NCBI GenBank assembly: GCA_030619985.1
Contig: JAUXAI010000037.1
Span: 1-12,186, forward strand
Direction of reading: 5' to 3'
Source of the DNA: a bacterium
GTDB taxonomy: Bacteria > UBP18 > UBA7526
DNA length: 12,186 nt
Shown here: piece after piece, positions 9,205-12,186 of the stretch
Position numbering within the stretch: the first letter of the stretch is position 1
Layout: every line of letters begins with the position of its first letter
Program-made: the position numbers and the translations under genes
Notes under the pieces: model-generated
The model's input: the letters and a program-made list of their open reading frames with translations, nothing else
What the model was told of the DNA's origin: nothing
Database searches by the model: none

Positions 9205-9220
9205 TATTCCACGTGGAATA
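9205..9220. promoter_or_regulatory. parS: parS-like centromere site 1
   Basis: TATTCCACGTGGAATA is a perfect 16-bp palindrome, extended to 18 bp by T9204 and A9221. The classical ParB site is TGTTTCACGTGAAACA, with TGTTCCACGTGGAACA as a known variant. This copy keeps the CACGTG core and differs at the second base of each half (A for G). An identical copy lies upstream of parA at 10366-10381. Position beside parAB and exact duplication support ParB binding. Confidence 0.85.
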
Positions 9221-10365: not shown

Positions 10366-10381
10366 TATTCCACGTGGAATA
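10366..10381. promoter_or_regulatory. parS: parS-like centromere site 2, upstream of parA
   Basis: A second exact copy of TATTCCACGTGGAATA, a perfect 16-bp palindrome with the CACGTG core of parS. It lies about 100 bp upstream of the parA start, between the rsmG repeats and the terminator at 10391. parS sites often lie near parAB and the origin. ParB bound here could also influence transcription of its own operon. Confidence 0.88.
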
Positions 10382-10423: not shown

Positions 10424-10451
10424 TTGCTTTTTAGTATTTCTGTGTTAGAAT
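10424..10451 (+). promoter_or_regulatory. Possible parA promoter with extended -10
   Basis: TTGCTT (10424-10429), a 16-bp spacer and TAGAAT (10446-10451) preceded by TGT (10443-10445, an extended -10 TGn). It lies directly after the terminator and before the parA ribosome binding site (AGGTGA, 10458-10463). If real, transcription starts near 10458 with an extremely short leader. This would also exclude the upstream in-frame ATG at 10450 as the parA start. Confidence 0.4.
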
Positions 10452-10467
10452 GGTTTCAGGTGATGAA

Positions 10468-11229
10468 ATGGGAAAGGTCTATGCCATTGTCAATCAGAAA
10501 GGGGGGGTAGGAAAGACTACCACCGCTGTTAATTTAGCTGCTTATTTAGCTAGCCATCGTCGAAAAACGCTCCTAATAGACATCGATCCCCAGGGGAATA
10601 CAACAAGCGGTGTAGGTATAGATAAGAATAGAGTGGAGCACTCTATCTATGAGGTATTAATCGCTCATAAACCGATAGAAAGGGTCCTTCTACCCACCCA
10701 GATAAGGAACTTGGATCTTGTCCCTTCAAATATCCAGCTCTCTGGTGCTCAGATAGAGCTGGTAAATTTAGAATCCCGAGAGACATTGCTCAAGAGAGCA
10801 TTGGGGAATATTAAGGAAAGATACGATTACAACATCGTCGATTGCCCCCCATCTTTAGGGCTATTGACCATAAATACTCTAACCGCTTCTGATGAGGTTA
10901 TCATTCCCATGCAGTGTGAGTACTATCCTTTGGAAGGATTAGGCCAACTCTTGAATACCATTGGTTTAGTCCAGAGGAATTATAATCCGTCTTTAAAGTT
11001 GGCCGGGGTATTACTCACTATGTTTGATACCAGGACAAATCTATCCCATCAAGTAGCAAGGGAGGTCCGGGAATATTTCGGAGACAAAGTTTACAAAACA
11101 GTTATTCCGAGGAATGTTAGGCTTTCAGAGGCACCGAGTTTTGGAAAACCGATATCGTTGTACGATAGACATTGTGCGGGAGCAAAGGCATATAAAAAGT
11201 TCGCCAGAGAGATTATTGCTCAGGAATAG
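10468..11229 (+). CDS. parA: Chromosome partitioning ATPase ParA (Soj)
   Basis: ParA is a deviant Walker ATPase that binds DNA non-specifically as an ATP dimer and, with ParB on parS, moves the origin regions apart. The 253-residue product has KGGVGKTT (11-18, Lys11 and Lys16), the Walker A' DIDPQGN (38-44) and the Walker B-like NIVDCPPSLGLLTINTL. It lacks the extra N-terminal domain of plasmid-type ParA and has the length of B. subtilis Soj. ATG 10468 is preferred over ATG 10450: it gives the family start MGKVYAIVNQKGG, has AGGTGA at 10458-10463, and the upstream ATG overlaps a likely -10 box. parB follows on the same strand but 282 bp away, wider than the usual tight parA-parB junction. Confidence 0.96.
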   Translation: MGKVYAIVNQKGGVGKTTTAVNLAAYLASHRRKTLLIDIDPQGNTTSGVGIDKNRVEHSIYEVLIAHKPIERVLLPTQIRNLDLVPSNIQLSGAQIELVNLESRETLLKRALGNIKERYDYNIVDCPPSLGLLTINTLTASDEVIIPMQCEYYPLEGLGQLLNTIGLVQRNYNPSLKLAGVLLTMFDTRTNLSHQVAREVREYFGDKVYKTVIPRNVRLSEAPSFGKPISLYDRHCAGAKAYKKFAREIIAQE

Positions 11230-11511: not shown

Positions 11512-12186
11512 ATGGCTAAAAGGGCATTAGGCAAGGGACTGGCTGCTCTCATACCAGAGGTAGGACCGGTTAAGGAGGAGGATGTTATTGAGGCCAGATT
11601 GTCCTCAATAAGGCCAAATAGGTTCCAGCCACGGGAGGAGTTCGATCTCCAAAAGTTAGAGGAACTTATCTCTTCTATAAGAGAGAAGGGGGTCATCCAA
11701 CCTGTCCTGGCAAGGGTAGTAGAAGGAGGATATGAGCTAATTACTGGAGAAAGAAGACTTAGGGCAGCGAAGAAACTGGGCTTGGAGAAGATCCCTTTGA
11801 TTGTGAGGGAGGTTTCTAATACTGAGATGCTCGAGCTGGCTCTCATTGAGAACTTACAGAGGGAGGATCTGAATCCTATGGAGGAGGCTCATGCCTATCG
11901 CAGGGTAATAAAGGAGTTCAAAATAAAACAGGAGGACTTAGCGAGAGAGATTGGAAAGAATCAGGCAACGGTAGCCAATACCTTAAGACTTCTAAAACTC
12001 CCTAAAGAGGTCCAGGGGGAGATCTCTAAGGGAAACCTCTCTCGAGGCCATGGACTGGTGATTCTGGGTCTTGAGAACCGGGCTTTACAGATAAAGGCAG
12101 CCAAGAAGGTAAAGAGAAACGGACTATCTGTAAGGAAAACAGAGGATTTGGTCAATAAATTAAAAGGAAAGGTAGTCCTTCCACCG
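11512..12186 (+). CDS. parB: Chromosome partitioning protein ParB (Spo0J), 3' end cut by the window
   Basis: ParB is a CTP-dependent DNA clamp that loads at parS and spreads along nearby DNA to recruit ParA and SMC. The frame is open to the window edge (225 residues; full proteins have roughly 280-300), so only the C-terminal dimerisation region is missing. Visible parts are the N-terminal ParA-contact segment MAKRALGKGLAALIPE, the CTP-binding GERRLRA (79-85) and ENLQREDLNPMEEA (113-126). The helix-turn-helix QEDLAREIGKNQATVANTLRLLKLP spans 140-164, followed by the linker with GHGLVIL. ATG 11512 gives the usual start and is 6 nt from GGAGG; ATG 11509 directly before it is possible. The recognition helix reads GKNQATVANT where ParB normally has GKSRSxxANx (see findings). 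Confidence 0.97.
   Translation, partial: MAKRALGKGLAALIPEVGPVKEEDVIEARLSSIRPNRFQPREEFDLQKLEELISSIREKGVIQPVLARVVEGGYELITGERRLRAAKKLGLEKIPLIVREVSNTEMLELALIENLQREDLNPMEEAHAYRRVIKEFKIKQEDLAREIGKNQATVANTLRLLKLPKEVQGEISKGNLSRGHGLVILGLENRALQIKAAKKVKRNGLSVRKTEDLVNKLKGKVVLPP

Follow-up and report, generated by a model that had tools for sequence, protein, structure and literature searches.

The chromosomal partition system of a bacterium in the candidate phylum UBP18 appears to have changed the code by which its ParB protein recognises its centromere. A natural switch in ParB/parS specificity is well supported by sequence covariation and, by analogy, matches biochemically the QTKG intermediate engineered in the laboratory. 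It is very probable that UBP18 ParABS is an ordinary chromosomal system except for a one-base-pair switch in the code linking ParB to its centromere, and that a pair of TATTCCACGTGGAATA palindromes is its parS. ParB and Noc are the reference case for the evolution of DNA-binding specificity, but the paths between them have been worked out from a single starting point, a single end point and a library of mutants. In chromosomal ParB, a supposedly invariant residue and the centromere change repeatedly, and each change needs matching at the centromeres.

The window, the whole stretch of DNA that was analysed (12,186 nucleotides), is an oriC-type end of a chromosome contig. Its gene order, read from the open reading frames, is rnpA, yidC, jag, mnmE, mnmG, a DUF4416 gene, rsmG, parA and parB. 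Pfam supports DUF4416, the ParA-type AAA_31 domain and ParB_N with HTH_ParB; the remaining gene names were read off the translations. The parA (soj) reading frame (10450..11229, + strand), which has the AAA_31 domain of the cognate ATPase, lies immediately 5' of parB (11512..12186, + strand), and the latter is truncated where the contig stops. Within the same assembly, contig C71 completes parB through a 141-bp overlap, giving 292 amino acids when numbered from an alternative start at ATG 11509; judged by ribosome-site spacing, ATG 11512 is the more likely start. The product has the ParB motif LGKGLAALIP at its N-terminus. PF02195 and PF17762 are both far over their Pfam cut-offs, so that the test for a CTPase ParB_N domain with HTH_ParB is met, and the NCBIfam parB_part model is also exceeded (TIGR00180, 190 bits against a cut-off of 58). 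With parA abutting parB upstream and oriC-type genes nearby, the protein qualifies as a chromosomal ParB, and it is the sole ParB-family match in its own genome. A second, distant ParB-like protein of 263 amino acids (GRTQSDISHHLRLLK; L041, contig C44 of G002) occurs in one UBP18 genome; no counterpart was found in the assembly to which the window belongs.

The recognition helix named in the original prediction, residues 148-162, is present in the ParB translation as GKNQATVANTLRLLK. It lies at 11953..11997 (+ strand); the span first given, 11931-11994, covers the same HTH, but starts too far upstream and ends three bases short. When the helix is aligned without gaps to those of Caulobacter ParB (6s6h), Spo0J of B. 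subtilis (6sdk) and a protein of the ParB family (7bnk), Gln151 (codon CAG, 11962..11964, + strand) falls at position 173 in Caulobacter numbering, which is Arg in nearly all ParBs and Gln in Noc (PMC7383237); the alignment that would have refuted this placement did not occur. The same alignment bears out the assignment of Thr157 (ACC, 11980..11982, + strand) to position 179, where it is ParB-like, and of Lys162 (AAA, 11995..11997, + strand) to position 184, where Caulobacter has Ala. It had also been claimed that Noc has Arg at 184. This is wrong, because Noc has "almost invariably a lysine" at both 179 and 184 (PMC7383237), and the "permissive" Lys162 of UBP18 ParB thus matches Noc there. 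The residue set was moreover incomplete, since it left out position 201, which is the ParB-like Gly179 (GGC, 12046..12048, + strand) that goes with a CACGTG core. UBP18 ParB is therefore QTKG at positions 173, 179, 184 and 201. According to Jalal et al. 2020 (PMC7383237), R173 and G201 are "absolutely conserved" in ParB, a criterion that UBP18 ParB does not meet: G201 is kept and Gln replaces R173. R173 was not treated as defining ParB because, in the survey described below, some chromosomal ParBs that are linked to parA lack it.

Both predicted palindromes are real. One lies at 9205..9220, separating the DUF4416 gene from rsmG, the other at 10366..10381 between rsmG and parA; both are in gene spacers, and each is a perfect match to TATTCCACGTGGAATA. 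They are hybrid sites as described, with the A of NBS at base 2 and the CACGTG core of parS. Only 0.03 such palindromes would be expected in the window by chance, even allowing three mismatches, and a search of the whole 1.25 Mb assembly found no other exact copies. The 16-mer is present in one or two copies in five genomes from three genera. Both sites are kept in relatives, and alignment of the flanks finds the 16-mer intact in changed non-coding surroundings, most clearly at the first site (9205), where the flanks are unalignable. Chance palindromes were excluded by shuffles, by the whole-genome search and by a 386-genome sample. The sites thus satisfy what is asked of cognate ParABS palindromes, being two in number, unique in the genome, located in the par region and conserved, albeit without binding data. 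A literature search restricted to open-licence PMC text found no paper mentioning the four TATT/CACGTG 16-mers.

The solved ParB-parS and Noc-NBS complexes, from which the roles of the three residues are inferred, suggest how such a site might be read. Gln173 would hydrogen-bond adenine, so that at base 2 (and 15) the 16-bp site is read as A:T instead of G:C. Gly201 would leave the A at base 7, and hence the central CACGTG, unchanged, while Lys184 may add phosphate contacts and so the affinity without which an engineered Q173 protein fails. From what is known of ParB biology, the protein would load at the TATTCCACGTGGAATA palindromes, close with CTP, spread and recruit ParA. That it binds TATTCCACGTGGAATA and discriminates against TGTT..AACA is likewise an inference.

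The original prediction was that protein and site seem to have changed together, which can be examined by asking whether residue 151 (position 173) covaries with base 2 in relatives. In an initial sample of 41 genomes, 35 had parB relatives; the window's family is represented in the sampled set by five relatives. Q173 in chromosomal ParBs with flanking par context was confined to that family in this sample, and the chromosomal ParBs read outside it have R173 and a parS of the form TGTT..AACA. Among 386 genomes, TATTYCACGTGRAATA was found in five UBP18 genomes. Two further copies stood alone, lacking a parB within roughly 1.5 kb; these TATT palindromes, in G224 and G405, were set aside because their 3-kb loci contain no parB. 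About 85,000 species were scanned with a degenerate DNA pattern for Q173..G201 helices with a codon other than Lys at 179. This yielded at least 29 stretches, the figure being a minimum because the pattern misses GR and GL variants. All CACGTG-core palindromes at these loci start with TATT. Whole-genome searches concur, except in genomes with an additional R173 ParB and for one site in the Q173 genome G059, a TGTT site that was discounted because the contig carrying it is short, gap-filled and devoid of parB.

The association is also seen within phyla. In Sysuimicrobiota (the NCBI phylum name, reached via ANGP1; 35 genomes) there is a clean split between Q173 with TATT and R173 with TGTT, and the same holds in Armatimonadota (91 genomes). 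The combined set contains 165 chromosomal ParBs, 125 of them with a scored nearby site, scoring being based on palindromes near parB with an equal base 2 in both halves (about a dozen rows by whole-genome matches). R173 goes with G at base 2 in 93 cases and Q173 with A in 32, with no off-diagonal case among these symmetric sites (Fisher p ~1e-30, kinship ignored). A symmetric site of the expected form was not found near parB for eight Q173 ParBs, four of them from Patescibacteria, and no matching site was recognised in the Q173 members of that phylum. The claim of joint change is upheld across several phyla, and the case that would have told against it, Gln at this position beside a standard parS, was not found for any Q173 ParB.

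Some R173 genomes have mixed sites. The ParB locus L147 (G480) has two asymmetric sites, GATTTCACGTGAAACA, with A at base 2 in one half and G in the other, and G043 has the mixed half-site TATTTCACGTGAAACA. Such sites imply that Arg does not absolutely read base 2 in both halves; it is possible that they are transitional states.

Covariation of this kind could in principle reflect a single ancestral event, or a single horizontal transfer of parB together with its site, the two traits hitchhiking without any causal read-out. The number of changes was estimated on an IQ-TREE ParB tree from which the helix and intragenic-site columns had been removed, with six further sites assigned by eye. The best tree has nine changes per trait. 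Independent pairs are concordant in nine of nine cases on this tree and in three of three on strongly supported branches; as there are only three of the latter, a sign test there cannot reach significance. The tree is short and weakly resolved at depth, and its well-supported branches force only three changes, which leaves some room for a single origin. However, none of the 200 bootstrap trees has one (5-95% range, 8-9 changes), and the switches lie within phyla, next to R/G relatives. The places of the sites also differ (inside parB, just after parB, before parA or before rsmG), and the data on engineered proteins supply a direct chemical reason for the pairing (PMC7383237). Hitchhiking from a single origin is thus improbable. 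As far as sequences can tell, the same paired Q/A change appears to recur in several other bacterial phyla by repeated joint switching of protein and site, and UBP18 is one of several independent switches, not a unique one. The R clade of Sysuimicrobiota may be ancestral or a reversal.

It might also be supposed that the UBP18 protein is Noc, acting in nucleoid occlusion at NBS-like sites. Bacillus Noc-NBS shares with it Q173, K184 and a site whose base 2 is A, and the Noc model TIGR04285 is its top-scoring NCBIfam model. The score of the protein fragment, 235.8, nevertheless falls below the cut-off of 315, and an R173 ParB reaches 223.8 on the same model. The full set Q173/K179/K184/R201 is not matched, since UBP18 has T179 and G201 where Bacillus Noc has K179 and R201, and the core is CACGTG instead of the CCCGGG of Bacillus NBS. 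Unlike Noc, the UBP18 protein lies directly behind parA, has the N-terminal ParB motif and is without a second ParB in its genome of which it could be the duplicate. Its two sites are confined to the parAB region, whereas NBS are scattered over the chromosome, except ter (PMC7383237). The identification with Noc is thus very unlikely, and the proposal of a natural ParB/Noc intermediate survives as a biochemical analogy with the engineered QTKG protein, not as a statement about Noc ancestry.

The analogy is with PtoN6, an engineered Caulobacter ParB (PMC7383237) with four specificity residues (QTKG) identical to those of UBP18 ParB. Jalal et al. 2020 (PMC7383237) report that this QTKG protein changed over to a site that is a parS/NBS hybrid. 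Its exact site is not printed in PMC7383237; a preference for A1 with A6 is inferred from the statements there that Q173 variants prefer A1 and that R201 prefers C6 (Jalal et al. 2020). PtoN6 is a laboratory mutant, while the UBP18 ParB and the site that goes with it both occur in nature. Caulobacter ParB-parS resembles the UBP18 system in having ParA-ParB-parS near oriC genes, ParB_N with HTH_ParB, a 16-bp palindrome with a CACGTG core, and G201; it differs in that its R173 reads G at base 2, where UBP18 has Q173 and A, plus K184. Naturally diverged 16-bp palindromic centromeres with matching ParBs also exist in the Bsr ParB-parS families of Burkholderia (PMC5450999), but there the divergence is between replicons of one cell or plasmids of Burkholderiales. 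Here it concerns the only chromosomal ParB that entire lineages have, and a residue-base rule is identified.

That the palindromes serve another DNA-binding protein, such as a regulator near oriC, and are not centromeres is scarcely credible: the lack of an experiment and the presence of only two copies, in gene spacers, leave it conceivable, but the sites fit parS in their length, symmetry and core as well as in their position and their linkage to parAB, and in other phyla comparable sites are located within parB or immediately after it and change with residues 173 and 201.

Laboratory work showed a need for Lys/Arg at 179/184 (Jalal et al. 2020, PMC7383237), but 33 of the 40 Q173 chromosomal ParBs have neither residue at either position. 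Natural QTAG ParBs are encountered in the Sysuimicrobiota G073 (L084) and G075 (L086), both with TATTTCACGTGGAATA within their own parB. QTAG is dead in Caulobacter (Jalal et al. 2020, PMC7383237); if the natural QTAG proteins work, their affinity must come from residues elsewhere. The site often lies within parB, 209-215 bp past the helix start, in Sysuimicrobiota with Q173/G201 and in some Armatimonadota lineages. It codes there for ISREI-like residues where R173 relatives have VSRET, so a change of site alters the protein too.

Position 201 also varies. In seven Sysuimicrobiota Q173 ParBs (G090-G095 and G097), G201 is replaced by Ala, and the sites of this clade are TATTTCTCGAGAAATA in five genomes and TATTTCCCGGGAAATA, the exact Noc NBS, in two. 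A whole-genome search for TRTTTCYCGRGAAAYA found it in 5 of the 35 Sysuimicrobiota genomes, all belonging to the Q173/A201 clade and always beside parB. The N-terminus of these Q173/A201 ParBs has the motif typical of ParB, a ParA motif lies upstream in three of six loci checked, and the two proteins tested are both below the Noc model cut-off. The loci L101, L105, L104, L107, L108 and L109 (G091-G095, G097) are outside Firmicutes. In Armatimonadota, an R173/A201 ParB (G472) has TGTTTCTCGCGAAACA directly 3' of its gene. Judging from these sequences, the pairing of residue 173 with base 2 seems to vary separately from that of residue 201 with base 7.

Natural combinations at 173/201 with their own sites (R/G, Q/G, R/A and Q/A) appear to be available from these genomes, which makes the inferred order of changes and the need for permissive lysines testable on natural proteins. 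It is somewhat favoured, with modest confidence, that the centromeres of bacterial chromosomal ParBs have been rewritten many times through a modular code of two positions, 173 with base 2 (Arg-G, Gln-A) and 201 with base 7 (Gly-A, Ala-T/C). Sysuimicrobiota would then have reached the exact Noc site in parB without duplication, and residue 173 could change under Gly201, mostly without permissive lysines, unlike the order suggested by deep mutational scanning. The pairs are also candidates for orthogonal ParB/parS combinations in DNA labelling.

In Armatimonadota, Q173/E201 ParBs at L219 (G493) and L232 (G485) adjoin the paired palindromes TATTCGCCGGCGAATA and TATGCGTCGACGCATA, and are possibly a further specificity class. 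A ParB with Pro at 173 (L102/L116, G069) has the palindrome GTTTTCACGTGAAAAC, with T at base 2, about 1.3 kb before its helix. The 6.7 Mb genome of G468, also in Armatimonadota, contains 112 TRTTYCACGTGRAAYA palindromes (e.g., L244:10943-16840), far above the usual number of parS; among those listed, the palindromes are TGTTTCACGTGAAACA, in small clusters on several contigs.

Pelotomaculum and relatives (L050, L055, L059, L075, L076 and L048) have a second ParB-like protein of about 250 amino acids with a GKPQ helix and Q173/G201. These proteins were excluded from the chromosomal ParBs as paralogs, because the same genomes hold an R173 ParB with TGTT sites; perhaps they are Noc-like. At L075, TATTCTACGTAGAATA lies immediately before the gene of the Q173/G201 paralog. 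Other ParB-like paralogs, at L177 (G056), L178 (G065) and L176 (G062), have intragenic A-type palindromes 68 bp past the helix start, and the one at L176 is a QKRR protein of the Noc type with CATTTCCCGGGAAATG.
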